Source: Chiridota heheva (taxonomy: Eukaryota > Echinodermata > Holothuroidea > Apodida > Chiridotidae). Taken from it: a stretch of DNA of 64,000 nt. Positions within the stretch are counted from its first letter, which is position 1; every line of letters starts with the position of its first letter. The stretch lies in the NCBI GenBank assembly GCA_020152595.1, contig JAIGNY010000725.1:803501-867500 (forward strand). Direction: 5' to 3'. Positions 29,436 to 51,542 of this stretch are shown in pieces. Made by a program: the position numbers and the translations under genes. The notes beneath the pieces were generated by a model. The model saw nothing but the letters and a program-made list of their open reading frames with translations, was not told where the DNA came from and searched no databases.

Positions 29436-29474
29436 TTTTCTCTTTCTTATATCGTGGTGGCTCTCAAAAGAGCC
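29436..29474 (-). terminator. Histone-type 3' stem-loop and purine-rich element, left arm
   Basis: On the minus strand: CCCAAA, then GGCTCTTTTGAGAGCC (29,474-29,459; 6 bp stem, 4 nt loop), then ACCAC, then ATAAGAAAGAGA (29,450-29,439). This matches the layout of metazoan replication-dependent histone mRNA 3' ends: stem-loop with ACCA cleavage region, then a U7-binding element (sea urchin CAAGAAAGA). It starts ~30 nt after the stop codon of the intact acidic ORF, a histone-like 3' UTR length. No poly(A) signal is evident between the stop and the stem-loop. Function is inferred from sequence only. Confidence 0.8.
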
Positions 29475-29504
29475 TTTGGGTTTTGTTTCTTGTGTCTCAC
29501 ATCA

Positions 29505-29888
29505 TCACGGGGCAGATCTGTTCGTCTCCTCAACCTCTTCCGTTTCCTCTTCCGTTGTTTCTTGTTCTTTGCTCTTTTCTTCCTCCATTTCTATTTCTGC
29601 CGGCGGCCACTCGTCGGCCATGAGGAAGTCCTCGTTGGCAGCAGCAATGACTCGAGCCCACTCTCCGTAGGTGAGAACCAGTTCCTCGTCCTCGTGTTCT
29701 CGTTTGACCGTGACGACGCTGAACGGTGGCTTGTCGTCCTCGTCCCAGTCGCGTGTTGCTGAGCTCGGCGAGCTAGGTGTGTAACCTGCCATCGCCGCGT
29801 CAAAATCCCACTCTTTCTCGTAGGGTAGGCACATCTCTTTGTCCTCCATAAACACTTGGACGGGAAAATACTCGTATAAGGTAGCCAT
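29505..29888 (-). CDS. Acidic Polinton arm protein, left copy (intact)
   Basis: An intact 127-codon ORF starting MATLYEYFPVQVF. The N-terminal half contains SATRDWDEDDKPPFSVVTVK and a conserved segment LVLTYGEWARVI...NEDFLMA; the last ~35 residues are very rich in Glu and Thr. A homologue lies in the right arm at 49,612, inverted. No known domain. Its promoter has a CCAAT box (reverse of ATTGG at about 29,985) and a TATA-like CAGAATAAAA. Transcription ends at a histone-type stem-loop. It could be an early regulatory or DNA-mimic protein, but that is speculation. Its intactness, amid broken neighbours, is notable. Confidence 0.7.
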   Translation of the reverse strand: MATLYEYFPVQVFMEDKEMCLPYEKEWDFDAAMAGYTPSSPSSATRDWDEDDKPPFSVVTVKREHEDEELVLTYGEWARVIAAANEDFLMADEWPPAEIEMEEEKSKEQETTEEETEEVEETNRSAP

Positions 29889-30085
29889 GGTGTTGATAAT
29901 TGTAAATCTAACAGATCGAATGATTAAAAATTATCAAAGTCGGTTCTTTTATTCTGTCTGTAAGTAATACTCACCATGCCATGATTGGTTAGACAGGCAC
30001 GTGGGTGTATACTTACCTCCGTTTGGTTCGTATCACGCCTGCCTGTTGACACTTGTCTGGCTCGCGCCCAAGTTATCACGCCTGG
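29889..30085 (-). promoter_or_regulatory. Promoter region of the left arm gene
   Basis: Conserved with the right arm: CAGGCAGGCGTGATACGAACC, CCACGTGCCTGTCTAACCAAT-type block (E-box CACGTG plus CCAAT), and CAGAATAAAA about 60 nt before the ATG, all read on the minus strand. Conservation between arms supports a functional promoter or replication-end function. Confidence 0.6.
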
Positions 30086-30408
30086 TGATTTTTTTTTCTT
30101 CAAACTTTATTTTCTCTCGATGCCAGAAAATAAGACGCAGCTTATATGGCATAATGATAACAATAACAAACATGTTCATGCAGAGGGCTCTTCTTCTTCT
30201 TCTTTGGGTTTCTCGATGATGATGGGTGGTATGTCCAGTTTTCAATTTACTTTGCGTCTTTTTGACAAGGTGGGAGGTGGCGACGACGACGGTAAACGGG
30301 GTCTTTTTTTTGCTTTTGAATGTTCTGTTTCCATCTGTTCGCACAATTCGTCCATGTTGCTGGGATTTTTCTCCATGATGGGTACTTTGACCAGTGCTTT
30401 CAAATGTT
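30086..30408. other. Inter-ORF stretch of the Polinton
   Basis: Minus-strand frames are basic (RRRRR, KKK) and probably represent the decayed tail of the adjacent PC4-like gene. No frame can be assigned with confidence. Confidence 0.3.
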
Positions 30409-30711
30409 TTATTGCAAATAGCCCTTTTTACTCGCTAGTTTACGCCATTGGTCCAGGTTGAGAGAAATCCCTTTTTCTTTGGGTATTTCGGTCCATTGAC
30501 GGGTGGTGTGTCTGTTCAGGTCGCTGATGGTTTGCATTGCGTAGTCGTAATGGCGTATGTCCACGAGAATGCTTACACCTTCTGCGGTCAGACCGATGTA
30601 AATCTGTTTTCCTAGAAGCAAACGTAACTTTTCGGGGTGTGACGGACCGCTCATGTGACAAGCTCCGTTGACGTCAGACGTATGGTAATGCAAGGCCATT
30701 TCGGATACCAT
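30409..30711 (-). CDS. PC4-like ssDNA-binding protein, copy a
   Basis: A 100-residue frame. The region VSILVDIRHYDYAM...KEKGISLNLDQWRKL corresponds to the PC4/SUB1 C-terminal domain pattern 'V.IR.Y......P..KGISL...QW..L' (residues ~45-95). PC4 domains bind melted or single-stranded DNA and act in transcription and replication. The domain is at the C-terminus, as usual. It is the last of four adjacent minus-strand ORFs sharing the pattern. A start further upstream is possible, and the end is probably truncated. Confidence 0.55.
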   Translation of the reverse strand: MVSEMALHYHTSDVNGACHMSGPSHPEKLRLLLGKQIYIGLTAEGVSILVDIRHYDYAMQTISDLNRHTTRQWTEIPKEKGISLNLDQWRKLASKKGYLQ

Positions 30712-30729
30712 GTTTTTGTTCTTGCAGAG

Positions 30730-31020
30730 TTAATCCCAAACGCCTTCTTCCATGGCGATACCTTGAGCTGTGACTCTTGGTATTGTACAGGGGTTGATTT
30801 TGGCATACTTGCCAAGATGTACATATTTGATGCTTTCAAACTGCGATGTAGACACGTGCACGTTATCTCCTACGGGATAAGCTCGGGTCATCAATCCGCG
30901 ACTGTCTCTTACTTTGTCGAAACTCTGCATTTTTAAAGCTCTCTTCAACGGTATGTTGTCGGAATCCGAAGGCGGTGGTGAGAGTCGCACATCTCTCGTG
31001 TGCTTGTTATGGTAGTACAC
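30730..31020 (-). CDS. PC4-like ssDNA-binding protein, copy b
   Basis: 96 residues. The C-terminal part has YPVGDNVHVSTSQFESIKYV, then HLGKYAKINP and AQGIAMEEGVWD, a diverged PC4 pattern in which the usual KKGI is AQGI and QW is GVW. The N-terminal part is Ser/Pro-rich with a basic patch. Truncated right after the motif compared with copies a and c. Possibly a frameshifted remnant. Confidence 0.5.
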   Translation of the reverse strand: MYYHNKHTRDVRLSPPPSDSDNIPLKRALKMQSFDKVRDSRGLMTRAYPVGDNVHVSTSQFESIKYVHLGKYAKINPCTIPRVTAQGIAMEEGVWD

Positions 31021-31169
31021 GTTACTGTTCCTCTCGCTTACTTTATTTCAAGCGATTTGAGCCATGATGATAATGATGGTGTGTCTTTCTCGAAGAGTTG
31101 TGAAGGAATGGTGGGTGTTTTTTAATTCGGGCACTTTTATAACGTTTTTCAGTAGAAGGCGCTAGTCAA

Positions 31170-31475
31170 TTATCGTCGGATGACATCCTGCTTCTTCCAA
31201 GATTTGTTTTTTGAGGTGTTACACATATCCTCGAAGGACACGTGTTTCGTCGTTTTTCTGGTCTTTGCGTCTTCTTCTTCTTCGTCTTTCAAAATACATA
31301 CTTGACGAAAGCTCTCGGGACGTGCCAAAATCATCCATTGTTCGGGTTTGAGAGCGATACCTTTCGTGGTAGGTACTTCATCGATAGAAGGAACGTTGCT
31401 ATACTTTCTGATATGCACGTAGAGATTGTCTTTGAACGAAGAGATCGTGACATAGGTATGCTGTCCGAGCACCAT
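31170..31475 (-). CDS. PC4-like ssDNA-binding protein, copy c
   Basis: 101 residues starting MVLGQHTYVTISSFKDN. The PC4 core is clear: LYVHIRKYSNV...PTTKGIALKPEQWMIL at residues ~17-50, followed by a Glu/Lys tail. It is the best-conserved of the four. The start is just upstream of the YVTISSF strand, and the stop codon of copy d lies only ~15 nt upstream of this ATG, arguing for a tandem array from duplication. Confidence 0.65.
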   Translation of the reverse strand: MVLGQHTYVTISSFKDNLYVHIRKYSNVPSIDEVPTTKGIALKPEQWMILARPESFRQVCILKDEEEEDAKTRKTTKHVSFEDMCNTSKNKSWKKQDVIRR

Positions 31476-31489
31476 TTTGAGCTTTTCTT

Positions 31490-31779
31490 TAAAATGGATG
31501 CGATGGGTACTGTCCTTTAATTTCTTGAAATGTGTCCGTTACCAGACGAGCTCGACGAGTTATCACGGCCCATTGCTCGAGTGTGATGGCGATACCTTTC
31601 TTGGTCGCCACGGGTGTCGTTCCGACATAAGGGTGTATAAGATACTGCCGTACGTGAACGTCAAACTTTCCGATGAAGCCAGAGACGGTGAAGTAGCGTT
31701 CGCCTCCTAAAGCAACATATTTCTTGTCTTGTGTGCCGGCACGGACATCGGTTAATCATCGGGCAGTGATTGCTTCCAT
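31490..31779 (-). pseudogene. PC4-like ssDNA-binding protein, copy d (in-frame stop)
   Basis: The minus frame from ATG at 31,779 meets a TGA after six codons, then continues open through GGERYFTVSGFIGKFDVHVR and ATKKGIAITLEQWAVI to TAA at 31,490. The PC4 core is well preserved. A CCAAT box (31,791-31,801, reverse) lies just upstream. Either the start is downstream of the stop or the gene is inactivated. Confidence 0.55.
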
Positions 31780-32027
31780 GTCTGAGTTTTGATTGGATGT
31801 TACACACCGTCGTCGTCGCCTTTTCATAACTTTTTAAAACAATATATGTAAAACAAGCGCCCTCTAGTTAAAAAAAAAACCCGATTTACTATTTTGGTCA
31901 AAGTCTGTCGTTTCGACGAGGAGACAGTGTTCCGTTCCGGTTTTTGTAAATTTGGATGACTTATCGATGTTGTTTGTATAGAGGGCGTTAATAAAAGAAC
32001 ATCTTCTGAATTAATTAAGCGAACGTC
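31780..32027. other. Inter-gene region of the Polinton
   Basis: No ORF. Includes the CCAAT box of PC4 copy d and an AATAAA on the plus strand near 31,991 with no matching gene. Confidence 0.4.
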
Positions 32028-32484
32028 TTAACCATAATGTTGTAGTACAAACGTAAACACATCCTCATCGTTGCGTTCCTTGTCTTTCCAAAAACGAGCC
32101 GTGATGCCGTTCATGTCCGAGCCTCGTGCCCTATGAACCAGATAATAAATACAATAATGACCGCATACGCTAGAAGAAGGACTCTGAAGCGGATTGTGAT
32201 TGTAAACAAGCGGTTTATTTTTCAAGAAACGTCGAATGAAAGAAACGTCGGGGGGTTCGCCGTAGGAGTCAAAATATCAACAAGGACCGAAATCGGGCAC
32301 GTAAATAGCGACCCATATGCCGGCCCGGTTTCCAAATTGGATCCGTGTTGACCACTATGACACTCGGACGTTCCAAAGGTGAATGTAACTGATATGCGGC
32401 ATGAACGCCGTCGAACACGTCGCACACTAGCCATCGCGTGTAAGCGTCTTTGCTGAACACTCGTACAATATCGGACGTCTCCAT
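32028..32484 (-). pseudogene. Adenain-like cysteine protease (frameshifted)
   Basis: From ATG at 32,484 the first frame gives METSDIVRVFSKDAYTR and, later, VVNTDPIWKPGRHMGRY, whose His in the GRHM/W context fits the catalytic histidine of Ulp1/adenain-family proteases. After a break near 32,230-32,270 another frame carries SSSVCGHYCIYYL (catalytic Cys in VCGHYC) to a stop at 32,028. Known role of the family: maturation of capsid proteins. About 150 codons in total, slightly short. The upstream frame runs continuously from the capsid ORF end, so the capsid stop may be lost. Confidence 0.75.
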
Positions 32485-32489
32485 GATTT

Positions 32490-33790
32490 CAATCGGTAAA
32501 GTCGTAGATGATGTTGCGGTTTTATCTATTTCGATGATGTTGTCAAATTCGGCGTAGATGAGAAGGTTGGTGGTGGATTCCAATACCTCTGCAGATTTAA
32601 GATCCACACGAAGATTTCCTCGTTTGTTGACCGTGTAGTATTGTCCGTGGGATCCGTTAAGTGTCAGGTCGAGAGCGAACAGTGTGTAACCGTCCAGAAA
32701 ATCCGTCGGAGTGATGTCTATATCCCATCGCCGTACAATCGACCCGTGGCAGAATACAGTTGAAGGTAAGTGCAGAGAGCTAGATGTGATTCGAAGTTGA
32801 GGGTAAGCGGCGTGGAAGGATACTGTTTCTAAGATAATTCAGTTTGATTTACGAAACGGATTCTTCTTGTAAGAGCCGTTGAAAGAGGCCGTGTCCACCA
32901 GAAAAACCACGATCCTCTTTGGTAACTTGCCCAGAAATACATTGTCCCGTTGAAAATGTTGGGTTCCGGTCGGTATGGTGATATTTTGGATGATGGTACG
33001 TCTGATCTTGTACTTGGCTGGTTCTCTGTTAAGGGTGACGAGGTCGCTGAGCACATGGGTGTCGCTGCACGTCAGTTTACACACGTAGAGAATGGCGTCC
33101 AAAAAATCACGCGAAACTCGGCATCTGCAGTTTTCGACGTCAAACAAAAAGAGTCCTTACTTCAGTGCAGTTTGAGTCGTACTTCCACACCCGGTAGAAG
33201 CACGTTGTTTTGAGCAAATATGTCGGAGTGTAGCGTCCCATCATCTCGAACACTTTGCTGCCTTTTGTTTTAGCAAAACGTGTTTTAAGTCCCCAGTCGG
33301 GGATGTTAGCCTCAGTCAAATCGTTGAAGTCCATATGTGATGCACTGTCTTTGAAGTAGAACTGAGACTGCAGATGTGTTTCTTTGGCTTCTCTGTCGTA
33401 GTTGAGCAAAGTCTCGATCATCGCTCTGTAAGGGTACGTTGGCGTCGAGTCGTTGATGAGTTTGCCGCTGGGGACCACGTCTAGTTGCGAAAACATCGAC
33501 TGCAACATCAGATTGACAGGAGCCACTTTTTCTTCGTCGTCGGCGGCGTCGCAATCGCTTCCGTCTGCTTTGGTGATTTTCACTTTGACGTAAAGTTGGG
33601 TGTTGTGATATCGCGATATTTGCTTCCTGTTCCGGGAATAAGAAATTCGATCGGTCCCTTGAATTTTCTCCTCCAGACGGACGGTATTCGACGTGTTCGC
33701 TGTCTTCGATCATTTTTTGTGTCGGAGGAAGGCTAAACACTCCATTTCTGATTTGGAGCACGGTATGAAGTGATTGTCAACAAGAGCCAT
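32490..33790 (-). pseudogene. Polinton major capsid protein (double jelly-roll), broken
   Basis: From ATG at 33,790 the recognisable pieces occur in order but in changing frames: LQIRNGVFSLPPTQ (about 33,730), EKVAPVNLMLQSMFSQLDV and HLQSQFYFKDSASHMD (33,140-33,583), DNVFLGKLPKRIVVFLVDTASF and YKKNPF (32,839-33,147), and the C-terminal STTNLLIYAEFDNIIEID (about 32,530). These are the characteristic segments of the Polinton/adintovirus major capsid protein. At ~1.3 kb it is clearly shorter than the usual 1.8-2 kb, so internal deletion accompanies at least three frame breaks. Confidence 0.8.
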
Positions 33791-34034
33791 GTTGACGGTG
33801 TGATAACCGAGCTGCTAATGAGGATAGAATCGGACTATTGTTCTTCTTATAAGAGTTCCACGTAGTGTAAACGATTGGATTTCTTTTCAAGGCCGACTTT
33901 CGGGCACGGATACTCGGACTGTATCGAGGTGTGCTTGATCGTGGTCGTGTCGGTGGGTGTTCTCGTGCGTATCGTGTCAATGTTCCAAATACATATCTCC
34001 TTTTTCTGTTCAACGGTTTTTTTGTTGTTGCCAC
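33777..34034 (-). CDS. Small basic ORF upstream of the capsid gene
   Basis: 85 residues, strongly basic (PLNRKRRYVFGTLTRYAR and many Arg/Ser). It overlaps the capsid start in another frame. It may be a genuine core-like DNA-binding protein or a fragment of the neighbouring basic ORF. No family recognised. Confidence 0.3.
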   Translation of the reverse strand: MATTKKPLNRKRRYVFGTLTRYAREHPPTRPRSSTPRYSPSIRARKSALKRNPIVYTTWNSYKKNNSPILSSLAARLSHRQHGSC

Positions 34035-34080
34035 GATTGGCTTTTTGTTTTGCCGGTCCGCGTCCGGTCGCGATCGTTTC

Positions 34081-34491: not shown

Positions 34492-34756
34492 GAGTCATGG
34501 CTTTTCGTTTGATATGTTGACCTGCTTCTCTCGCTTTGCAAGCGGCTGATCGTTTGATGTTTTCTCCAGCCGTAACGTCTCCTAGAATACCGGCTCCCGT
34601 GGTCAAAGCCTGTTTTCCAACTTCTTTACCTAAACTCACGGCTCCTTTCTTGAGGAACGGTATAACCAACCTAAACAATCCCGAAAGCATTCCGCCGAGA
34701 CCGTAGCCTCGTTGATTTCCCGGCCCGATAAATACGGGTAGACGTCCGTCGGCCAT
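34463..34756 (-). CDS. Conserved Polinton amphipathic small protein (membrane-active type)
   Basis: 97 residues containing YGLGGMLSGLFRLVIPFLKK and a following amphipathic stretch VGKQALTTGAGILGDVTAGE, then a Lys/Arg-rich tail. The GLGG...FF.P.L.KG pattern is shared by many Polintons and adintoviruses and has been compared to adenovirus pVI/pX-type membrane-active virion proteins (established comparison, recalled). The ORF looks intact apart from a possible C-terminal frame change into the basic ORF. Confidence 0.7.
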   Translation of the reverse strand: MADGRLPVFIGPGNQRGYGLGGMLSGLFRLVIPFLKKGAVSLGKEVGKQALTTGAGILGDVTAGENIKRSAACKAREAGQHIKRKAMTRAKRHCPDI

Positions 34757-36500: not shown

Positions 36501-37586
36501 TTATGTTTTCGTGATTTTATAAACTGCGTCTGTTTCCTTTTTACTGATCTTTTGTAATTCCTCTCGATAAAAGGTACCGGCCACTACTTCTCCTTCGAGA
36601 TCTTTAACCGCATACACGACGGCTTGACGGCGGATCACTTTGTCGATTACAAATACTTCTTCGGTCCATTGTGGCAGATAGCCTTTGCGAAATGGTCGTG
36701 TGACCATGCTCAAACGAATGACGTCTCCTGTTTGTAAGGTTACACATTTCTTCTTCTTCTTTGACGTTTTACCGTATAAAGCTTCCCATGCAGACCTCTA
36801 ATTCGTTGCGCTCGTGGACATCTTCCGGAGCCCGTCTGATATTGCGATGACGAGCACCGTTGTAGGCGACAAGAATTTTGGGTAGTACGTCGACGTATTT
36901 GTTAGTGCTGTTTGCGGTGAAGTAGCGCCACATTCGAGTTTTGAGCGTACACTTGAATCTTTCCACCACGCTGGCTTTGGTTTCGTTTTCCATCGAGAAG
37001 AGTTTTACACCTTGTTCTTTTAAATAAGTCTGTACTTGACGATTATAGAATTCGGTTCCTTTGTCTGTCTGCAGCTTCCGCGGTAAACGCCTTGAATCTT
37101 TGAACAACTTTTTGAATGCAGTCAAAAGCGATGCTCCTGATTTGTTTTTGGGAGGTAATGCCTATGCGAATTTCAAAAAATACGTCTATACATGTCAACA
37201 ACCATTTTGTCCCTTTGTTAAACCGTGCGTAAGCTTTGAGATCGACGAGATCGGCTTGCCATTGATCGTCGATACCATTTACGATGACTCTGTTTCTATT
37301 GTATTTATGTCTCGAAGTTTTGTGTAAAGTGTAGGTGTCTTGTTTTTCAAGCCATGTTCGTACCGCCATTCGTTTCAGAGTCAGAAACCATTTCTTGGCC
37401 GCGGCGTACACATTGCCAACTTCTGCGAAACCAGCGGGATGCGACGGATCGTAGTAGATTTCTCAAAGTATATTTTCCACCGTCGGTAACATCTTCGTTC
37501 GAATCACACAGTTGATGGGTTTTTAATAAATCGCGTAAGTCTACCCAAGATGATGCTGTACCTGCAATGTCGGTTTTATTTTGCAC
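36501..37586 (-). pseudogene. Retroviral-type (DDE) integrase of the Polinton, frameshifted
   Basis: Pieces in order on the minus strand: YTLRNLLRSVASRWFRR region (37,347-37,586); DTYTLHKTSRHKYNRNR and DDQWQADLVDLKAY with the first catalytic Asp at about 37,250 (37,043-37,411); KLQTDKGTEFYNRQ with the second Asp at about 37,063 and ETKASVVERFK with the catalytic Glu 34 codons later (36,769-37,125); and the SH3/chromo-like C-terminal domain KGYLPQWTEEVFVIDKV...GTFYREELQKI (36,501-36,713). The D, D, E triad is preserved, but at least two frame breaks (near 37,100 and 36,720-36,770) separate the domains. It would catalyse integration. Confidence 0.88.
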
Positions 37587-37652: not shown

Positions 37653-39961
37653 TCTTCTTCTTCTTCTTCTTCTTCTTCTTCTTCTTCTTCTTCTTCTTCT
37701 TCTTCTTCTTCTTCTTCTTCTTCTTCTTCTTCTTCTTCTTCTTCTTCTTCTTCTTCTTCTTCTTCTTCTTCTTCTTCTTCTTCTTCTTCTTCTTCTTCTT
37801 CTTCTTCTTCTTCTTCTTCTTCTTCTTCTTCTTCTTCTTCTTCTTCTTCTTCTTCTTCTTCTTCTTCTTCTTCTTCTTCTTCTTCTTCTTCTTCTTCTTC
37901 TTCTTCTTCTTCTTCTTCTTCTTCTTCTTCTTCTTCTTCTTCTTCTTCTTCTTCTTCTTCTTCTTCTTCTTCTTCTTCTTCTTCTTCTTCTTCTTCTTCT
38001 TCTTCTTCTTCTTCTTCTTCTTCTTCTTCTTCTTCTTCTTCTTCTTCTTCTTCTTCTTCTTCTTCTTCTTCTTCTTCTTCTTCTTCTTCTTCTTCTTCTT
38101 CTTCTTCTTCTTCTTCTTCTTCTTCTTCTTCTTCCTATTTAAAATCTTCTTCTTCTTCTTCTTCTTCTTCTTCTTCTTCTTCTTCTTCTTCTTCTTCTTC
38201 TTCTTCTTCTTCTTCTTCTTCTTCTTCTTCTTCTTCTTCTTCTTCTTCTTCTTCTTCTTCTTCTTCTTCTTCTTCTTCTTCTTCTTCTTCTTCTTCTTCT
38301 TCTTCTTCTTCTTCTTCTTCTTCTTCTTCTTCTTCTTCTTCTTCTTCTTCTTCTTCTTCTTCTTCTTCTTCTTCTTCTTCTTCTTCTTCTTCTTCTTCTT
38401 CTTCTTCTTCTTCTTCTTCTTCTTCTTCTTCTTCTTCTTCTTCTTCTTCTTCTTCTTCTTCTTCTTCTTCTTCTTCTTCTTCTTCTTCTTCTTCTTCTTC
38501 TTCTTCTTCTTCTTCTTCTTCTTCTTCTTCTTCTTCTTCTTCTTCTTCTTCTTCTTCTTCTTCTTCTTCTTCTTCTTCTTCTTCTTCTTCTTCTTCTTCT
38601 TCTTCTTCTTCTTCTTCTTCTTCTTCTTCTTCTTCTTCTTCTTCTTCTTCTTCTTCTTCTTCTTCTTCTTCTTCTTCTTCTTCTTCTTCTTCTTCTTCTT
38701 CTTCTTCTTCTTCTTCTTCTTCTTCTTCTTCTTCTTCTTCTTCTTCTTCTTCTTCTAAATCTTCTTCTTCTTCTTCTTCTTCTTCTTCTTCTTCTTCTTC
38801 TTCTTCTTCTTCTTCTTCTTCTTCTTCTTCTTCTTCTTCTTCTTCTTCTTCTTCTTCTTCTTCTTCTTCTTCTTCTTCTTCTTCTTCTTCTTCTTCTTCT
38901 TCTTCTTCTTCTTCTTCTTCTTCTTCTTCTTCTTTCTTCTTCTTCTTCTTCTTCTTCTTCTTCTTCTTCTTCTTCTTCTTCTTCTTCTTCTTCTTCTTCT
39001 TCTTCTTTATTTCTTCTTCTTCTTCTTCTTCTTCTTCTTTTATTTCTTCTTCTTCTTCTTCTTCAAATTTCTTCTTCTTCTTCTTCTTCTTCTTCTTCTT
39101 CTTCTTCTTCTTCTTCTTCTTCTTCTTCTTCTTCTTCTTCTTCTTCTTCTTCTTCTTCTTCTTCTTCTTCTTCTTCTTCTTCTTCTTCTTCTTCTTCTTC
39201 TTCTTCTTCTTCTTCTTCTTCTTCTTCTTCTTCTTCTTCTTCTTCTTCTTCTTCTTCTTCTTCTTCTTCTTCTTCTTCTTCTTCTTCTTCTAAATCTTCT
39301 TCTTCTTCTTCTTCTTCTAAATCTTCTTCTTCTTCTAAATCTTCTTCTTCTTCTAAATCTTCTTCTTCTTCTAAATCTTCTTCTTCTTCTAAATCTTCTT
39401 CTTCTTCTAAATCTTCTTCTTCTTCAAAATCTTCTTCTTCTTCTTCAAAATCTTCTTCTTCTTCTTCTTCTTCTTCTTCTTCTTCTTCTTCTTCTTCTTC
39501 TTCTTCTTCTTCTTCTTCTTCTTCTTCTTCTTCTTCTTCTTCTTCTTCTTCTTCTTCTTCTTCTTCTTCTTCTTCTTCTTCTTCTTCTTCTTCTTCTTCT
39601 TCTTCTTCTTCTTCTTCTTCTTCTTCTTCTTCTTCTTCTTCTTCTTCTTCTTCTTCTTCTTCTTCTTCTTCTTCTTCTTCTTCTTCTTCTTCTTCTTCTT
39701 CTTCTTCTTCTTCTTCTTCTTCTTCTTCTTCTTCTTCTTCTTCTTCTTCTTCTTCTTCTTCTTCTTCTTCTTCTTCTTCTTCTTCTTCTTCTTCTTCTTC
39801 TAAATCTTCTTCTTCTTCTTCTTCTAAATCTTCTTCTTCTTCTTCTTCTTCTTCTTCTTCTTCTTCTTCTTCTTCTTCTTCTTCTTCTTCTTCTTCTAAA
39901 TCTTCTTCTTCTTCTTCTTCTTCTTCTTCTAAATCTTCTTCTTCTTCTTCTTCTTCTTCTT

Positions 39962-40023
<62 letters not shown>

Positions 40024-42071
40024 CTTCTTCTTCTTCTTCTTCTTCTTCTTCTTCTTCTTCTTCTTCTTCTTCAAAATCTTCTTCTTCTTCTTCTTCTTCT
40101 TCTTCTTCTTCTTCTTCTTCTTCTTCTTCTTCTTCTTCTTCTTCTTCTTCTTCTAAATCTTCTTCTTCTTCTTCTTCTTCTTCTTCTTCTTCTTCTTCTT
40201 CTTCTTCTTCTTCTTCTTCTTCTTCTTCTTCTTCTTCTTCTTCTTCTTCTTCTTCTTCTTCTTCTTCTTCTTCTTCTTCTTCTTCTTCTTCTTCTTCTTC
40301 TTCTTCTTCTTCTTCTTCTTCTTCTTCTTCTTCTTCTTCTTCTTCTTCTTCTTCTTCTTCTTCTTCTTCTTCTTCTTCTTCTTCTTCTTCTTCTTCTTCT
40401 TCTTCTTCTTCTTCTTCTTCTTCTTCTTCTTCTTCTTCTTCTTCTTCTTCTTCTTCTTCTTCTTCTTCTTCTTCTTCTTCTTCTTCTTCTTCTTCTTCTT
40501 CTTCTTCTTCTTCTTCTAAATCTTCTTCTTCTTCTTCTTCTTCTTTCTTCTTCTTCTTCTTCTTCTTCTTCTTCTTCTTCTTCTTCTTCTTCTTCTTCTT
40601 CTTCTTCTTCTTCTTCTTCTTCTTCTTCTTCTTCTTCTTCTTCTTCTTCTTCTTCTTCTTCTTCTTCTTCTAAATCTTCTTCTTCTTCTTCTTCTTCTTC
40701 TTCTTCTTCTTCTTCTTCTTCTTCTTCTTCTTCTTCTTCTTCTTCTTCTTCTTCTTCTTCTTCTTCTTCTTCTTCTTCTTCTTCTTCTTCTTCTTCTTCT
40801 TCTTCTTCTTCTTCTTCTTCTTCTTCTTCTTCTTCTTCTTCTTCTTCTTCTTCTTCTTCTTCTTCTTCTTCTTCTTCTTCTTCTTCTTCTTCTTCTTCTT
40901 CTTCTTCTTCTTTTCTTCTTCTTCTTTCTTCTTCTTCTTCTTCTTCTTTCTTCTTCTTCTTCTTCTTCTTCTTCTTCTTCTTCTTCTTCTTCTTCTTCTT
41001 CTTCTTCTTCTTCTTCTTCTTCTTCTTCTTCTTCTTCTTCTTCTTCTTCTTCTTCTTCTTCTTCTTCTTCTTCTTCTTCTTCTTCTTCTTCTTCTTCTTC
41101 TTCTTCTTCTTCTTCTTCTTCTTCTTCTTCTTCTTCTTCTTCTTCTTCTTCTTCTTCTTCTTCTTCTTCTTCTTCTTCTTCTTCTTCTTCTTCTTCTTCT
41201 TCTTCTTCTTCTTCTTCTTCTTCTTCTTCTTCTTCTTCTTCTTCTTCTTCTAAATCTTCTTCTTCTTCTTCTTCTTCTTCTTCTTCTTCTTCTTCTTTCT
41301 TCTTCTTCTTCTTCTTCTTCTTCTTCTTCTTCTTCTTCTTCTTCTTTCTTCTTCTTCTTCTTCTTCTTCTTCTTCTTCTTCTCTTCTTCTTCTTCTTCTT
41401 CTTCTTCTTCTTCTTCTTCTTCTTCTTCTTCTTCTTCTTCTTCTTCTTCTTCTTCTTCTTCTTCTAAATCTTCTTCTTCTTCTTCTTCTTCTTCTTCTTC
41501 TTCTTCTTCTTCTTCTTCTTCTTCTTCTTCTTCTTCTTCTTCTTCTTTCTTCTTCTTCTTCTTCTTCTTCTTCTTCTTCTTCTTCTTCTTCTTCTTCTTC
41601 TTCTTCTTCTTCTTCTTCTTCTTCTTCTTCTTCTTCTTCTTCTTCTTCTTCTTCTTCTTCTTCTTCTTCTTCTTCTTCTTCTTCTTCTTCTTCTTCTTCT
41701 TCTTCTTCTTCTTCTTCTAAATCTTCTTCTTCTAAATCTTCTTCTTCTTCTAAATCTTCTTCTTCTAAATCTTCTTCTTCTTCTTCTTCTTCTTCTTCTT
41801 CTTCTTCTTCTTCTTCTTCTTCTTCTTCTTCTTCTTCTTCTAAATCTTCTTCTTCTTCTTCTTCTTCTTCTTCTTCTTCTTCTTCTTCTTCTTCTTCTTT
41901 CTTCTTCTTCTTCTTCTTCTTCTTCTTCTTCTTCTTCTTCTTCTTCTTCTTCTTCTTCTTCTTCTAAATCTTCTTCTTCTTCTTCTAAATCTCCTAAATC
42001 TTCTTCTAAATCTTCTTCTTCTTCTAAATCTTGCTCTTCTTATTCTTCTTCTTCTAAATTTTCTTCTTCTT
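37653..42071. repeat. (TTC/GAA)n expansion, ~4.4 kb
   Basis: Almost pure TTC on the plus strand, GAA on the minus. Interruptions are mainly TAAAT (minus GATTTA) near the right end and in the middle. At the 42.07 kb edge the minus strand reads as alternating Asp-Leu and Glu runs (DLEEEE), preceded by an ATG at 42,081 and MTRKEEENLEEEE. The tract may therefore have grown from a short Glu-rich reading frame. All long ORFs (poly-Phe, poly-Leu, poly-Lys/Arg) are artefacts. Copy number may be an assembly estimate. Confidence 0.97.
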
Positions 42072-43174: not shown

Positions 43175-43860
43175 CTAATTTTGATCAAGGCAAATACATT
43201 TATCGGCGGCCGAAGAGCCTGGTTTGTAAACGAAATTGATCGGGCGTTTTAGGGGTGAAATCGATGAAAAGGTAGCCGTATGGCTTCGCGTGGCGTCGGC
43301 ATAGGTTTCTCGGACATACCGCAAGCAGCCAGGCAACATCTGGCGAGCCAAATGATCGATAGAAGAAGCATCTCGAGGGTTTTTGAAAAATACGAGATAA
43401 TGAGTATTGAGACTAAGGGTACGCCCGCCTCTAAAAAAAAGTTTTGTACGAGAAGTACTGCGGATAGGTTACGGTGATAACTGCCTTCTGTGAACAATGC
43501 AGTCATGACGTGATTCAGCTCGCTCATCAAATCGTTGATGACAATCAGCTTCCTACGATCTGCATCCAGCCGTTTCAGTTCTTCTTCTTCAGGTAATCCT
43601 TCAATAAACTCGACATGAGGTAAAGCTTGTTTTAATGCTCCGTAATCGGGTTGGTATTTGGCATAAAACCAATATACGCGTTCGGGAGGTGGATCGATTA
43701 ATTGCTCACGACGTTCCAACAGCGTTCTCACCCACCGGGTCTTTCCGCACCTTGTCGGTCCTGCAACGATACAGGTGAAAGGATGATGTAATGTTCCATC
43801 CAACGTGTCCATCTTATGAATGTTACGATTAAACTTATGTTGTTCTTTAAATTTTCTCAA
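43175..43860 (-). pseudogene. FtsK/HerA-type DNA packaging ATPase (frameshifted)
   Basis: The ORF 43,249-43,860 begins [13 protein letters not shown]. Walker A GPTRCGKT is at residues 34-41 and a Walker B-like LIVINDLM at 105-112. RNLSAVLLVQNFF precedes an A8 run (43,433-43,440), where the frame shifts; the next frame carries SLNTHYLVFFKNPRDASS and LARQMLPG, typical of the sensor region of Polinton/adintovirus ATPases. A second shift near 43,290 precedes the C-terminus, which ends near 43,200. Known role: genome packaging into the capsid. First gene of the minus-strand block. Confidence 0.85.
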
Positions 43861-44766: not shown

Positions 44767-47700
44767 TTTTAATCATTGGACGGGTGAAAAACTTTGGGAA
44801 TTGCCAGACGAGTTTGAAGACTCAATGGATTGGGAAGCATAAATCGATACGGAGGAATGGGATATCGAGGATTGGGATGCACAAATTGACACAGAGGAAT
44901 TGGATATCGACTCCCAGGATTGTGAACTGGGGGAGATGATCAAGAGAGGAGGGAGTAATTTAACCGAAGAACTCAATACGTTTGTTAATCAATTTATTGC
45001 CGAAAACTTACCAATTCCCGATGAACAATTATTGCAATTACCTATGGTTTGTGACTTTTTTACCGCTCGTTGATGAAATAGAAAGACCCGATCAAGTCTG
45101 GGGAGCAGACAAGGCTGTGGATGTCGATCAGAACGATGAAAAAGTTACCGTCGAGAGTTGCTATCGTATCGTATAAACCCGAAGACGCCATATTCCTAGA
45201 TATAACTCGGAGGCAAATGAACACGTTGTGCGGTTCGACGGGGAAAGAATTGGTCGGCTTGCCAACCAAGAGGAGGACGTCGTCAACGTATTACATGCTG
45301 TTTTTGAAAGTCTCATCGAACGACTGGTAGAAGGTTTTGCTGCTCCTAACCACCATTTTTTGAGTTTTGCAATCAGAGACTGCTTTCGTGCTCGACGGAG
45401 ACGTTGAAATCAGAATGATTCACATCGAGATGCCTCAAGGAATTGGACGTACCAACATAAAAGACTGAACCCTGAAAAAACGCTCTATCATACGTATCGC
45501 AAACTAAGATCACCTCTGTCTATCCCGCGCTCTGGTGACCGCCAAAGCCCGCATCGACAAAGGGAACGATAACGCCGTCAACTGGAAAAACATTCGTCAC
45601 GGTTTGGTGGGCAAACGAGACTTGCAAGAGAGATTACATGAACAAGCCGGCGTTGTCTTGGGTCCTTGTGGATTGGAAGAAGTAGAGCGTTTTTAAGCCG
45701 TGTTACCCGATTACCAAGTAAATGTCGTTACATCAAACCCACGCGACTTGTTTCTATTCAGGGGACGTCCGCGTGCAAGAAACTTCATCTTTTCTACCAT
45801 GATAATCATTTTGATGTTGTCACCTCACTTTCTGGACTACTGGATACCCATTACTTCTGTGACAGATGTTTACGTTTCCGAAAAAAGTGTATTGAAACTA
45901 CAGGGGAAGGTTCTTTCGCTTGAAAGTGTATCATTATTTCCATGGCCTGTGCGCATGTTTCGACGAAAGTTCCTGCGTATTGATACGATTGCCCTGGCTC
46001 CTCATTCAGGATACGACAACGACATCCAATCCATTAGAGTCCTTCAATCGTTGAAATGTATTGAGCATCGAGAGGGTCGACAACTGCAACACGCTCGATC
46101 TTTCGAGGAGAAAAACACATTGGTCCTTACAAAGTAGACGGGTGGGATGAGGCGTCAAAGACAGCCTACGAGTTCTACGGTTGCTTGTGGCACGGTTTCC
46201 CTAACTGCTACCCAAACAGAAAACACAAGCTGCCAAGGGTCGAAACAACCGTCAAAGATGTTCACAAGAAGCTTACCCGTAAACGAGACTGGCTGAACAA
46301 TGAAGGGCTCCAAGAGGGCTTGAAACTGGTAGAAATCTGGGAATGCGAGTTCCGAGACGAACTGGAGAGAAACCCGCAGATGAAAGATTTCGTCGATAAC
46401 CTGAAACTGAGCGAACCTCTCCAACCCTAAGATGCGTTCTTCGGTGGACGGACCAATGCCATCAAGCTTCATGAAGTCGTCAAAGAAGACGAACAGATCA
46501 AGTACATTGATGTCTGCTCGCTCTATCCATACGTCAACAAGTATTGTAAATACCCTATCAAGCATCCGGATATCATCAAAACCCCGGACACCACCGGCGT
46601 ACGTGACTACGGAGGACTGATTAAATGCATCGTCTTGCCTCCTCGTGGTCTGTACCATCCCGTGCTCCCGGTCTGATGTCGAGGAAAACTCATGTTTTCG
46701 TTGTGTATCACCTGCGCAGAGACTCTGGCCAAAGGACGATGTAAACACTTCGATGAACAACGAGCGCTTCACGGGACGTGGGTGAGCTGCGAGTTACTAA
46801 ATGCCGTTACGATGGGATACGAGGTGCTACATATCGACGAGGTGTGGCATTTCAAGGAGACGGTGCGGTACGATCCCGAAACGGGAGAGGCCGGTTTGTT
46901 CACGGCTTACATCAATACGTTTCTGAAAATAAAACAGGAAGCCAACGGGTAGCCAGAAGGCTGCAAAACCAAAGAACAGCGTCGTCGGTACATTGACGAG
47001 TTTGAGGCCCGCAAAAAGATAAGACTGAATTACGCCAACATCGCCAAGAACGAGGGAAAGCAAGCGTTGGCTAAACTAATGCTCAATTCCTTTTGGGGAA
47101 AGTTCGGACAACGAAGTGCACTTACCAAGACGAAATTTATCAATACTCTTGAACAATTCTACAAGCTGTTGACTGACAAATCGAAACAAGTGAAATGCGT
47201 GCAGTTTCACGACGAGTTCACCGCCTGAATATAATGGGTCGACACGAACGAATACGTCGAAGTATTGCCCAACACGAACATTTTCAACGCGGCTTATACC
47301 ACGGCTCACGCCCGTCTCAAACTCTACACTTACATCAAGCGACTGGGGGAGCGCGTCCTCTACTTTGACACGGATTCCGTGATTTACGTCAGCCGATCGG
47401 CAACCTACGATCCACCATTCGGCAACTTTCTTGCTGACATGACAGACGAGCTGGAGACGCCTTACGGTGCCGGGAGCTACATCACCGAGTTTGTTTCTGG
47501 AGCACCAAAGAACTACGCTTACAAAGTACGTTCGACCACAGCAGGTGCCGTCGTCGTGGTGGAGTGCAAAGTCAGAGGCATCACATTGTACCATAACACC
47601 ATTCTATCGGTCAAATTCGAGGCGATGATCAACATGGCAAATCACGTAGATCTTGGAACAGGCCGAGCCTGGGATGACGACGAAGAACTCATCGTTCCTG

Positions 47701-47831
47701 TCCATTATCCTCACAGCATCAGGAGAGACGGTCCAGAAAGTGTCCTCATTAGATCCATTACCAAGGATTACAGACTGTTCTACGACAAACGCGTCATCCA
47801 AGCAGATCATTCGACCCTCCCGTACGGTTAG
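44767..47831 (+). pseudogene. Protein-primed family B DNA polymerase of the Polinton, broken
   Basis: The N-terminal part is acidic (WDIEDWDAQIDTEELDI at about 44,850). Next come the conserved segments KNIRHGLVGKRDLQERLHEQ and LGPCGLEEVERF (45,580-45,690) and a Cys motif YFCDRCLRFRKKC (about 45,855). After a gap comes YKVDGWDEASKTAYEFYGC (46,125-46,180). Palm motifs are present: YIDVCSLYPYVNKY (motif A, about 46,500), KLMLNSFWGKFGQR (motif B, 47,074-47,115) and YFDTDSVIYV (motif C, 47,362-47,391). In-frame stops lie at about 46,429, 46,675, 46,951 and 47,227, with several frameshifts before 46,120. The 3'-5' exonuclease region expected between the Cys motif and YKVDGW is not visible. Copies the element using a terminal-protein primer in functional relatives. 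Confidence 0.92.
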
Positions 47832-47835
47832 TGAA

Positions 47836-47940
47836 AGAGCGCCACCATTTGACACTCATATAAAAAAGAACATAAAAAAGGTGAATGTGAGTTGAATTGA
47901 TTAATTTAATCATGGGTATTCTAAACGAGTAAGATACATT
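47836..47940 (+). promoter_or_regulatory. Promoter-like region with AGAGCGCCACCA box
   Basis: AGAGCGCCACCA at 47,836-47,847 is followed by a TATAAAAAA box at about 47,860. The same 12-mer heads the upstream regions of three other plus-strand genes. Confidence 0.5.
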
Positions 47941-47943
47941 TGT

Positions 47944-48330
47944 GTGGGAACGCTTGTGGTGGCCTATGCTTGCAAAAAAAGTCTACGTAAGAATATCGCA
48001 GAGTACGGAAATGTTACTATCCGAGTGCTGAAACTGAATTTACAGAAAAGTACATGGATCCCGTGTATTTCGCCTGTGTTTCATTTCAAGGAAGGGTCGG
48101 AGGGATTGCTAAAGTTTTTACAAAACTTTAGTTGTAGATTGTTCGGAGACGATGAAGTACACGACTTTATGCCAAAACCTCTTTATGTCTGTATGGAAAG
48201 AAACGACGTAACAATCCGTATTGAATATACGGTCAACGAAAACAGATCTTCAAGCCGTATACGATCCCGCACCAAACTCATGTGTAGACACAGAAAGAGC
48301 GCCACCATTAGCATTGTTATTTTGCTCTGA
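47944..48330 (+). CDS. Uncharacterised Polinton ORF
   Basis: 128 residues from MGTLVVAYACKKSLRKN; basic, with KPLYVCMERNDVTIRIEYTV near the C-terminus. No family recognised. An earlier ATG at about 47,911 in another frame stops after five codons, so the true start may be damaged or the gene may begin upstream by a frame change. It lies between polymerase and the intact 261-codon ORF. Confidence 0.4.
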   Translation: MGTLVVAYACKKSLRKNIAEYGNVTIRVLKLNLQKSTWIPCISPVFHFKEGSEGLLKFLQNFSCRLFGDDEVHDFMPKPLYVCMERNDVTIRIEYTVNENRSSSRIRSRTKLMCRHRKSATISIVILL

Positions 48331-48398
48331 TTGGTCAGAAAATACATAAAAACGCAAGCCTCGTTGATGTTCGATTCATTATTTCATTAGACACCAAC
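48296..48398 (+). promoter_or_regulatory. Promoter of the 261-residue ORF
   Basis: AGAGCGCCACCA (48,296-48,307), CCAAT box as GATTGGTCAG (about 48,329), and a TACATAAAAAC TATA-like box (about 48,342) precede the ATG at 48,399. The order is the same as at 50.2 and 51.0 kb. Confidence 0.6.
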
Positions 48399-49184
48399 AT
48401 GGATACCACACCTAACAGTACGAGTTTAGGGAAGAAACGTAAAGCAGCGTCGGAGCATACACAGGCATCAAAGAAACCACGCAACGAGACCTTCATCTTA
48501 GTAAAAATGGCCCCTTCGCAAATCATTATGGCAGAGATCAGGCGTGTGGTGCGCGACGACTCTTGCGATCCTGACATGTACGGAGAACATACCGGCGAAG
48601 GAGACTTCACATTACCGTTCTACAACGCTTTAGGTTGTCTCGCCGCGTTTATGGCCCCAATAGAATGTGGCATGGATGAAGAAGGAGAAGTACTTGAACA
48701 TTTGTTGAAAGAGGCAAAGAAACACATGGGTATGGAGAAGGATCATACAAACATTCTGCAAACCGAAACGGCATCAACTGTCAAGCCGACAGAAGAAGAC
48801 TCTCTCTTGTTTAAAGAGAAAAAGAACTGGCCAAAATTCCTGAAAGCGATGACAGAGATAGCACACGACTTGCTAAAATCCCAATTGACACAAGCCGCAT
48901 TAGTCAACGACCTGATCGAGAAGGTCGAACAAAAGAAAGGCAAATTAAAAGAGATTCAACGCCCGCTGATTACAGATCCACTCACGAAAGACATTTTTAT
49001 AGAGCTAGAAATAGGAATGAAGGAAGAGGTTAGCAAAGACTACGGAAAACAGAAGGTACTCTGTTTGCTGAGAGACGTCATTTATGCAACGATGGGAAGC
49101 TACGTTGATCGATTGAGCAATCTCGGTGTCAAATGCAGAGTGATAGACTGGCTGTGGGACTTGATTATTAAGGAAGAATGTTAA
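48399..49184 (+). CDS. Intact uncharacterised Polinton ORF with nuclear-localisation-like N-terminus
   Basis: 261 codons, no interruption: the longest intact non-repeat frame in the element. The N-terminus LGKKRKAASEHTQASKKPR fits a bipartite nuclear localisation signal. The remainder is Glu/Lys-rich and probably helical, with a small Gly/Cys segment (ALGCLAAFMAPIECGMDEEG) and a C-terminal hydrophobic/aromatic block ending VIDWLWDLIIKEEC. No recognised domain. Unlike the arm genes it is followed by a conventional AATAAA at 49,204-49,209. Could be a regulatory or replication accessory protein; function unknown. Confidence 0.75.
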   Translation: MDTTPNSTSLGKKRKAASEHTQASKKPRNETFILVKMAPSQIIMAEIRRVVRDDSCDPDMYGEHTGEGDFTLPFYNALGCLAAFMAPIECGMDEEGEVLEHLLKEAKKHMGMEKDHTNILQTETASTVKPTEEDSLLFKEKKNWPKFLKAMTEIAHDLLKSQLTQAALVNDLIEKVEQKKGKLKEIQRPLITDPLTKDIFIELEIGMKEEVSKDYGKQKVLCLLRDVIYATMGSYVDRLSNLGVKCRVIDWLWDLIIKEEC

Positions 49185-49415
49185 AACATTGTATGTGTTT
49201 GAAAATAAAATTGCAAAGAAAAAAGAAAAAAATGAGGGCGGAAGGAGTACAAAATCGTGGCATGACTTCTACGGTACCACTGCGTTAGTTGGACAGGTAC
49301 TTTACCCTCGCATGTAAATATTCAAAAAAGAGAAAAATGAATTTAAAGACATTCGAAAAGAATTCGAGGCTACTGTAGAGGCTACCGTAGAAGTTCAACG
49401 ACTACCGCACGACAG
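49185..49415 (+). terminator. Poly(A) signal and spacer before the right arm
   Basis: AATAAA at 49,204-49,209, ~20 nt after the stop codon. The rest is A-rich and unremarkable. Confidence 0.55.
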
Positions 49416-49611
49416 CCAGGCGTGATATCTAGGTCAAGTGTCTGTTTGTAACAGGCAGGCGTGGTACGAACCAATTGGGGGTAAGTAATCAGCCACGTGT
49501 CTGTCTATCCAATAATTGCATGGCGTGTATTTTTTGTAGACAGAATAAAACTACCAACTTAAATAGATTTTCAATCATTCGATCATCCAGATTAACCAAC
49601 CTACAAACAAA
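49416..49611 (+). promoter_or_regulatory. Promoter region of the right arm gene
   Basis: CAGGCAGGCGTGGTACGAACC, CCACGTG (E-box), CTATCCAATAATTGCATGG (CCAAT box) and CAGAATAAAAC (TATA-like) match the left arm block by block. Confidence 0.6.
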
Positions 49612-49931
49612 ATGACGACACTTTATGCCGCTTACGCACAGAACAACAGTGATTGGGAAGAAGACGACGAGCCGCCTATCAGCAGATCAGCGTCGTCACA
49701 GTGTAGAGAAAGGTGGAAGAGGAAGGGAACGAGGAGCTCGTACTTTCCAACGGCGAGTGGGTGCGGGTGCTCTTACCCGACAATGAGGACTTTCTCATGG
49801 CCGCCAAGTAGCCAAGCAAAGAAAAGATCAAACAAGAAGAAAAGAAAAAGAAAGAATTGTATCTGGAGGCTGAAAAATGGTTTGCCGGCGCCACCAGAGA
49901 TGTGGAGAAAGTGAAATCAATGATGAGGTAG
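49612..49931 (+). pseudogene. Acidic Polinton arm protein, right copy (frameshifted)
   Basis: Starts MTTLYAAYAQNNSDWEEDDE, clearly homologous to the left-arm protein (MATLYEYF...DWDEDDKPP). The frame then changes: the open 100-codon frame becomes Arg/Ser-rich, while another frame carries the conserved NEELVLSNGEWVRVL and DNEDFLMAA segments, followed by a Lys/Glu tail. At least one frameshift near 49,690-49,710. Stem-loop ~85 nt after the homologous stop. Confidence 0.75.
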
Positions 49932-50015
49932 GTTAAGACAGACCGAAGTGTGGGGAGTCAGACCGACGCACCGCTGTACTGATGTCGTTTCTAAGAAGAA
50001 ACCCAAGAACCCAAA

Positions 50016-50052
50016 GGCTCTTTTGAGAGCCACCACAGGTATAAGAAAGAGA
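50016..50052 (+). terminator. Histone-type 3' stem-loop and purine-rich element, right arm
   Basis: GGCTCTTTTGAGAGCC at 50,016-50,031, flanked by CCCAAA and ACCAC, then ATAAGAAAGAGA from 50,041. Stem is 6 bp and perfect, identical to the left-arm copy. Confidence 0.85.
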
Positions 50053-50222
50053 AAAACGATTCAAGACATTCTGTGTAACGTATATTCATCTTTTGTATCG
50101 TCCATGTTTTATCGTTTGTTGTGTCAATTGAATTTTGTTCATATTATATGACATTGTATATTTGTTCTTGTTGTCCATGTTTATTCTGTTGTATTATTTT
50201 TTGTTTTCATTTATTTTTCAAA
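50053..50222. other. AT-rich tail of the right arm
   Basis: Partly conserved with the left arm (GTCCATGTTTTATC near 50,100). The arms lose similarity near 50,165; the remainder links to the next cassette. Confidence 0.5.
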
Positions 50223-50340
50223 AAAGCGCCACCAACTCAATTGGCATCATACCTTTCTGGCTTCTGATTGGTCGAAGAGATCTAAGCAAAAAGCATTGAT
50301 AGAGCAAACTTGATCAATTCGTTTCATTCTGAGTTTCAGA
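50223..50340 (+). promoter_or_regulatory. Promoter of right-end cassette 1
   Basis: AAAAGCGCCACCA (50,222-50,234), CTTCTGATTGGTC (CCAAT box, about 50,262-50,273) and a TTCATTCTGAGTTTCAGAGC initiator-region block near 50,324. ~85% identical to 50,991-51,118. Confidence 0.6.
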
Positions 50341-50850
50341 GCGAACATATCTTGCCTCGATACTTGCCAGTATTGTTAATATCCACGGCTGCTTTCCCTA
50401 ACGGGTTTACAAGGAGAATGTTAACACAGGAGGGAGCTCCCATCAGAGCTTACTACCGCTTCGGTTTGGCACGCAAATTCTTAAACAGAGTACAACAAAC
50501 ATCTGCCGTAGAACACCGCCAAGATACCAGAATTAAAGACCAGACCACCCTCAGAACTTTGCAATCAGAGAGAGCAACTGGGGGAAAGCACGCAACTCCG
50601 ACGCTCGTATGCGTTTTTACACTACTGGAGCTCAAGTATATTGTCAGTTTCTCGACCACTACAAGGTAAAAGCCCAGAAGAGGAAAAGATTAATGTCCAA
50701 GCCACCTTGCAAAAGAGGAGCGTACCGAGCCAACGTGATGAAGCATCGAGAAACGCATCAAAATATGCTGAGGAGCAAAGCAGCCGACGGGCATCGGTAG
50801 ACTACGGGAGGAGGACAGTAGCAGTTCAATCGGCCGATCGACAAAGAACC
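50310..50850 (+). pseudogene. Right-end cassette 1, decayed gene
   Basis: A frame at 50,310-50,669 (from about residue 15: LPRYLPVLLISTAAFPNGF, later GAPIRAYYRFGLARKFLN) is followed by other frames to 50,850. The last ~90 nt share GAGGAGGACAGTAGCAG with cassette 2 (an EEDSS-type C-terminus in the best frame). No clear initiator ATG just after the conserved promoter. I recognise no family; specifically, no histone fold could be recognised. Ends at a histone-type stem-loop. Confidence 0.45.
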
Positions 50851-50854
50851 CAAA

Positions 50855-50892
50855 GGCTCTTATAAGAGCCACCACCTATATAAGAAAGAGAT
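50855..50892 (+). terminator. Histone-type 3' stem-loop, cassette 1
   Basis: GGCTCTTATAAGAGCC (50,855-50,870), a perfect 6 bp stem with loop TATA, flanked by CCCAAA and ACCACC, then TAAGAAAGAGA (50,881). The loop is less canonical than that in the arms. Confidence 0.75.
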
Positions 50893-50990
50893 AATTGAAT
50901 TATGACATTGTGTTTCTGTTTATTATTGTATGCTTATGCCCCCTTCCAAAAGATTCGAAGTCATCGTACCTTTCTGGCTTTGTTTTCAAA

Positions 50991-51118
50991 AGAGCGCCAC
51001 CAACTCAAATGGCATCATACCTTTCTGGCTTCTGATTGGTCAAAGAGATCCAACCAAAAAGCCTAAATAGAGCAAACTTAATCCGTTCTTTTCATTCTGA
51101 GTTTCAGAGCGAACACAC
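50991..51118 (+). promoter_or_regulatory. Promoter of right-end cassette 2
   Basis: AGAGCGCCACCA (50,991-51,002), CTTCTGATTGGTC (CCAAT box, about 51,030), and the TTCATTCTGAGTTTCAGAGC block near 51,092. Parallels cassette 1. Confidence 0.6.
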
Positions 51119-51122
51119 CATC

Positions 51123-51498
51123 ATGAAGTCTTAGTCAAAGTAATGTTTGCACTCTTGAGAAAATGGAGCCCTGGACCTATCGACTACGATAAAGTTATAG
51201 AGCACCTCGAAAACAGATGCAACTGTTCACCACCATTCAAAGACGGGTTTCATTCTGCAGAAGGTGATGTAATTACGGCAGCCATCGTCTATGCTCACCA
51301 ACAAGTGTCATACTGCTGGGGCGGCATATGGGAGTTTCACGTTGCTGCTTTCACCCATGCTGTTTCCAACATGGCAAAAAAGGCAACGAGACCCCTGCAG
51401 AATTAAAGAACGCTACCGAATACTGGAGGAGCCGTCGGGGAAGAGTAGCAGAGAGCCACCGGAGGAGGACAGTAGCAGATCGATCGGGCAATCATAAC
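51123..51498 (+). pseudogene. Right-end cassette 2, decayed gene
   Basis: ATG at 51,123 follows the conserved leader but stops after three codons. A frame at 51,143-51,406 (87 codons) reads RKWSPGPIDYDKVIEHLENR and later VYAHQQVSYCWGGIWEFHV. The C-terminal region changes frame into Arg/Ser- or Glu/Ser-rich sequence (PEEDSSRSIG) shared with cassette 1. No family recognised. Confidence 0.45.
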
Positions 51499-51503
51499 CC
51501 AAA

Positions 51504-51542
51504 GGCTCCTATAAGCGCCACCACAAAAATAAGAAAGAGAAA
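51504..51542 (+). terminator. Histone-type 3' stem-loop, cassette 2 (degenerate)
   Basis: GGCTCCTATAAGCGCC (51,504-51,519) has two mismatched stem positions, but the flanks (CCCAAA, ACCAC) and AATAAGAAAGAGA are retained. Decayed relative to the other three. Confidence 0.6.

Follow-up and report, generated by a model that had tools for sequence, protein, structure and literature searches.

The 3' ends of replication-dependent histone mRNAs (Rfam family RF00032) carry a short stem, a loop with U at its first and third positions, the flanks CCCAAA and ACCA and, at a set spacing, a purine-rich downstream element, and such a stem-loop end is generally regarded as exclusive to these messages. Polinton/Maverick elements and adintoviruses are characterized by a type B DNA polymerase, a retroviral-type (rve-like) integrase, an Adeno_IVa2-type ATPase and terminal inverted repeats, and we know of no histone-type gene ends described for them. 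Here we analyze a stretch of 64,000 nucleotides from the holothurian Chiridota heheva (contig JAIGNY010000725.1, positions 803,501 to 867,500; hereafter the window), in which a decayed element of the Polinton family occupies about 29.3 to 51.75 kb and shares the polymerase, the ATPase and the inverted repeats, along with weak, sub-threshold integrase matches. Its outward-facing terminal genes, here called A, B and C, have 3' ends that resemble those of replication-dependent histone genes with respect to stem, loop, flanks, spacing and purine element; in contrast to those genes, the signal terminates non-histone genes of a mobile element. We regard it as likely (probability about 0.8) that these ends are used through the host SLBP and U7. 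Adomaviruses, which encode histone-like proteins (Histoid; PMC11071296, whose main text does not contain the term 'stem-loop'), likewise touch the histone system of their host; there, however, it is the protein that resembles a histone, whereas in the Polinton the RNA signal does and the protein does not. The original prediction, a reading of the window that was followed up here, had known of no such ends in Polintons, and no paper holding both 'histone stem-loop' and 'polinton' was found in the open-licence literature searched.

Three of the four motifs in the window exceeded the Rfam gathering threshold for RF00032 (34 bits) in a cmscan of the window: 50850-50896 on the + strand (E 5.9e-7), 50011-50056 on the + strand (E 2.8e-6) and 29435-29479 on the - strand (E 3e-6), with the bit scores given in Table 1. 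No other Rfam family was reported within the window at E<=1. The fourth motif, at 51,504, keeps CCCAAA, ACCAC and AAGAAAGAGA and gave no RF00032 report even at E<=1. For the purine element AAGAAAGA, the start lies 10 nt past the stem at the left motif and 11 nt past it at the other three. When the window was scanned for the stem with up to two mismatches, these four places were the only ones returned; 12 extra places with three mismatches were seen on the + strand, and five mononucleotide shuffles gave 5-14 places with up to three.

The same 3' layout was found in 40 copies that had been picked by protein match and not by motif (20 of gene A, 6 of gene B and 14 of gene C, mostly open frames). 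A stem with at most two mismatches was present in 37 of them (27 exact, nine with one and one with two mismatches), compared with 2 of 800 mononucleotide shuffles of the 40 stretches, and in the other three copies a worn stem remains at the same place. The loops of the 37 stems have U at position 1 in 36 and at position 3 in 33 cases, while positions 2 and 4 vary. In the 36 copies used for the purine element (the three without a stem were dropped, together with L046, which is cut by a contig end), the downstream tract was always purine-rich, and AAGAAAGA was exact in 27, in 26 of these at 11 nt past the stem, a spacing also seen in host H4 and H1. RF00032 exceeded its cut-off at 16 of 20 gene A loci. 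Of 21 gene A copies, 16 have the stem 13-38 nt past the stop codon; each of the remaining five has a frame that reads through the stem-loop or on to a shifted stop, or a stem that the search pattern misses. For gene C, the stem begins 36 nt past the protein match at 11 of 17 sites, and 33 nt past the stop codon in copy L054.

The host's own histone genes show the same arrangement. The genome contains H3-H4 repeats in which the stem starts 38 nt (H4) and 41 nt (H3) past the coding match; the 3' end of H4 reads CCCAAAAGGCTCTTTTCAGAGCCACCACATATATAAGAAAGAGAAAAATG, AAGAAAGA lies 11 nt past the stem in H4 and H1-like genes, and the corresponding H3 element is GAGAAAGA. An SLBP RNA-binding domain was detected on contig C2543 in two pieces over the cut-off; in one of them the match spans two stop codons, as it would where it crosses exon borders. 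The original prediction had described four motifs flanked by CCCAAA and ACCAC, laid out like replication-dependent histone 3' ends; sequences, flanks and spacing are as it claimed, and the layout agrees with that of the host histone genes in stem, ACCA tail, purine element and spacing. The motif is also present in relatives whose A, B and C frames are open. Two loci with stem-loops and purine elements, L023 and L024 (C1229 and C3175), are tandem arrays of H1-like linker histone genes with a unit of about 1.43 kb; they had been considered as element copies, an assignment dropped once their translation read as H1-like, and they are left out of the element counts. At L003 (C102:1366243-1369289), an H4-type stem-loop with downstream element stands without an upstream histone frame, possibly a lone 3' end.

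On the scale of the whole host genome (1.1 Gb, 3744 contigs searched), the pattern GGCTCTTNTNAGAGCCACC occurred at 707 sites with at most one mismatch, compared with a single site for the backwards-read pattern, and matches to a histone fold numbered 47. A chance origin of the motifs was dropped on this contrast and on the window stem scan. At least 155 genome matches were obtained for gene A (150 of 293 candidates scored), at least 150 for gene B (150 of 450) and at least 152 for gene C (150 of 425), counts which are lower bounds, include fragments and may hold two A genes per element. The 3' layout recurs behind three gene families with at least 150 matches each and so is no peculiarity of a single decayed copy.

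To assign the sites to genes, 100 of the 707, all of them exact, were taken as a sample. Of these listed sites, 51 come immediately downstream of an element gene (gene A in 20 cases, gene B in 14 and gene C in 17), 13 more lie within 25 kb of an A, B or C gene, seven follow a histone gene and two are in a histone cluster, which leaves 27 unassigned from the lists; ten of the 27 were examined in the DNA, and seven of the ten belong to genes A-D. The loops at the listed sites differ by gene, being UUUC or UUUG at 19 of 20 gene A sites and UAUA at 17 of 17 gene C and 12 of 14 gene B sites. Conversely, among the matches listed on the same contigs, an exact stem follows within 450 nt downstream in 20 of 39 cases for A, 14 of 28 for B and 17 of 34 for C. 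A further set of 20 ten-kb loci was taken in order from 74 listed RF00032 matches, skipping places already taken and repeats within arrays; since 75 of 217,804 candidates were scored in that genome scan, the set is biased to strong stem-loops. At 18 of these loci (the two H1-like arrays left out), an A, B or C match is followed within 600 nt by the stem-loop in 23 of 26 cases. A subgroup with a UCUG loop (L056-L060) was also noticed, which at L056-L058 stands beside B or C type genes and at L059 and L060 is unassigned.

Judged by its motifs, gene A also starts like a histone gene, with CCAAT, TATA-like and TCATTC elements, the last of which fits the histone cap-box motif. At least two CCAAT motifs occur in 16 of 20 aligned upstream regions, the same set that gave the counts for TCATTC and AATAAAAG in Table 1. 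In the window, TCATTC is found ahead of B (50,324) and C (51,092) as well.

Wherever copies are still open, genes A, B and C are each made up of one short reading frame, and their products are dissimilar in net charge (-30, +26 and -4, respectively, in one copy each). In many copies the C terminus of the A protein is rich in cysteine (CELCRLCPFCP). None of the three matched a Pfam family over the cut-off or the Histone fold; the original prediction had likewise recognized no histone fold in the genes terminated by the motifs. Gene D had no Pfam family. The median dN/dS of gene A is 0.19 (193 of 210 pairs with dS>0.1, 21 copies). All 13 computable comparisons with the window copy have dS >1, so that silent substitutions approach saturation, while the 3' element has hardly changed. 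Outside this genome, neither gene A nor gene C was matched, at the thresholds applied, by any of about 5.8 billion proteins, in a search which reaches only relatives with common short exact words; in IMG/VR, two scans found no relatives of the ATPase and none of gene A, the exact stem occurred in two stretches, neither with an Rfam match over the cut-off, and a longer pattern occurred in none. AlphaFold2 models were too weak to use for B (mean pLDDT 51.5) and C (59.1), and the profile of gene C matched no solved structure (best E 0.44).

The element itself is, by its gene content and repeat arms, a decayed Polinton and a member of a large family, in agreement with the original prediction, which had named it a Polinton. 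The type B DNA polymerase is recognized over the Pfam cut-off in two pieces, and the packaging ATPase has 149 relatives at E<=1e-3, the top seven being 67-82% identical. The integrase is the weak member of the set, its better PF00665 match reaching 22.4 bits against a cut-off of 32.6. The arms of the window element pair as terminal inverted repeats over the short stretch listed in Table 1; in the left arm gene A is seen and B and C are not. Capsid proteins were not matched by Pfam in three pieces tried from 33-36 kb, PHROGs returned nothing for five window proteins, and a solved-structure search returned nothing for one window piece.

Two further copies, of which only the ends were read, show the arrangement of the termini. 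The copy on contig C492 extends, by its repeat ends, from about 21.55 to 40.09 kb; genes A and C share one of its ends and gene B occupies the opposite end, all reading outward and each with a stem-loop. On C42, one end of the copy carries A together with B, and the opposite end carries A together with C. Stem-loops stand at both ends of either copy. The terminal inverted repeats of the C492 copy run for about 400 nt at 91%, its outer stem-loop sits inside the terminal repeat, and GGCTCCTCTTACTACT is the point at which the likeness between its two ends stops. Its flanks, inspected by eye for a 6-bp target site duplication, showed no clear duplication.

Table 1. Features of the Polinton-family element in the window (positions in the 64,000-nt window)
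Feature	Position	Strand	Basis
Purine-rich element AAGAAAGAGAAAA, histone downstream element type	29436..29448	-	Sequence; begins 10 nt past stem
Histone-type stem-loop behind left-arm gene A, loop UUUG	29459..29474	-	RF00032 34.5 bits; exact stem
Gene A, acidic, 127-aa open frame	29505..29888	-	Open reading frame; stop 31 nt ahead of stem-loop
TCATTC, cap-box-like initiator of gene A	29918..29923	-	TCATTC in 18/20 aligned copies
Inverted repeat, left part, promoter side of gene A	29926..30047	-	122 nt, 80% complementary to 49450-49571; blastn
AATAAAAG, TATA-like, 30 nt upstream of TCATTC	29946..29953	-	Exact in 15/20 aligned copies
PC4/p15-like protein (transcriptional coactivator family)	31173..31538	-	PF02229 E 3.1e-11, over cut-off
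Pieces of a retroviral-type integrase in frames that overlap	36772..37369	-	PF00665 E 1.5e-4 and 0.027, both under curated cut-off
Packaging ATPase, 187-aa open frame	43249..43812	-	PF02456 Adeno_IVa2 E 2.9e-5, 23.5 bits vs cut-off 21
DNA polymerase B pieces	46431..47225	+	PF03175 DNA_pol_B_2 E 2.1e-8 and 6.5e-8, over cut-off
Gene D, 261 aa	48399..49184	+	Relatives beside other stem-loop copies: tblastn L009, L010, L025, L026
Decayed gene A copy, right arm, frame changed	49612..49914	+	blastn to left arm; translations
Histone-type stem-loop behind right-arm gene A copy, loop UUUG	50016..50031	+	RF00032 34.6 bits
Gene B, decayed copy in two open pieces that overlap	50418..50800	+	Open reading frames; tblastn to L009, L011, L025 and others
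Histone-type stem-loop behind gene B, loop UAUA	50855..50870	+	RF00032 36.4 bits
Gene C copy, open piece 87 aa	51143..51406	+	79% identical to C copy of L054
Decayed stem-loop behind gene C	51504..51519	+	Two stem mismatches GGCTCC/AGCGCC; purine element kept
Likely right terminus, GGCTCCTCTTATTACT	51734..51749	+	One letter from GGCTCCTCTTACTACT

Some additional features of the window were noted. Frames at 30409-31047, adjoining the PC4-like gene, match other copies such as L012 and L028. The Polinton is interrupted by a TCT-type array of about 4.4 kb (37653-42071), nearly free of G on the + strand, with a GC skew of -1.0 at 38-42 kb. Outside the element, tandemly repeated units of 70 and 91 nt occupy 61352-62822.

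If the signals work as they do in histone genes, host SLBP would bind the stem-loop of the A, B and C mRNAs, the U7 small nuclear ribonucleoprotein would pair with the purine element, and cleavage past ACCA would yield mRNAs without a poly(A) tail, which would be made and translated mainly in S phase; the likely benefit would be expression of A, B and C while the host replicates its DNA. The Polinton copies thus suggest a borrowing of the host's cell-cycle-linked, poly(A)-free way of making messages. The stem-loops could instead be relics of host histone genes that were captured by the element, or beside which it landed, and play no role for the element genes. The 3' element differs very little from its counterparts in host H4, H3 and H1, and an origin from a host histone gene is therefore likely; as an explanation of the present pattern, however, relics are very unlikely, because A, B and C are without a histone fold, because three families that differ in net charge nevertheless have a common spacing, and because the C42 and C492 copies have stem-loops at both ends. 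The least probable of the explanations considered is that the palindromes act as DNA hairpins at the terminal repeats, in replication, integration or packaging, and not in RNA processing: the stem-loops do lie near the ends, the outer one of C492 even within the terminal repeat, but the stems stand at a near-fixed distance past stop codons, in transcript orientation and, for gene A, at a remove from the terminus too; conservation of ACCA and the purine element is on the 3' side of the transcript, and the loop pattern is that of histone mRNA.

Use of SLBP and U7 by the A, B and C genes is nevertheless weakened by several observations. An AATAAA or ATTAAA hexamer lies within 100 nt past the stem in 9 of 36 copies, so that polyadenylation is conceivable, and the Rfam U7 model found nothing in the genome, a result which is uninformative because it found nothing in the controls either. 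Both would suit a mechanism in which SLBP binds the mRNA for stability or translation and the end arises by ordinary cleavage and polyadenylation, which we consider improbable, since the purine element, well conserved at a fixed distance, would be idle without U7. The proteins of B and C have dN/dS values of 0.74 (26 of 28 pairs, 8 copies) and 0.65 (101 of 105 pairs, 15 copies), respectively; either they are weakly constrained or the sets include decayed copies. At the ten-kb loci, TCATTC was found within 900 nt upstream in just 2 of 16 B or C stem-loops, and the histone-like promoter can therefore be claimed for gene A only. RF00032 exceeded its cut-off at 8 of 20 B/C loci and stayed under it at the other 12; the covariance check put forward with the original prediction is accordingly borne out for three of the four window motifs, most gene A loci and these eight, but not for the motif at 51,504 and the 12. 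Of the outcomes that the original prediction named as refuting, weak covariance scores and a lack of the motif in intact relatives did not occur. Three of the ten leftover sites examined in the DNA were without A-D genes. Finally, the copies of A, B and C share descent and hence are not independent of each other.

A more far-reaching reading, which we put forward tentatively, is that the whole Polinton lineage may have turned its terminal genes into imitation histone genes (gene A from promoter to 3' end, B and C at the 3' end), made in S phase without poly(A) tails by the host's histone machinery. Among the listed sites, 51 signals of the element stand against 9 of the host's own histone genes, and the element's signals may be competitors for SLBP and U7. 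The B protein, which is basic, and the A protein, which is acidic, could have a role in chromatin or in the packaging of element DNA. That 51 of the 100 listed stem-loop signals follow element genes matters for counts of histone genes that are based on the stem-loop and for studies of SLBP targets. If A, B and C use the stem-loop 3' end, its exclusivity to histones would be broken, the SLBP/U7 pathway would prove to be one that selfish elements can capture, and a virus-like element could tie its expression to the DNA replication of its host, a proposition that is testable.

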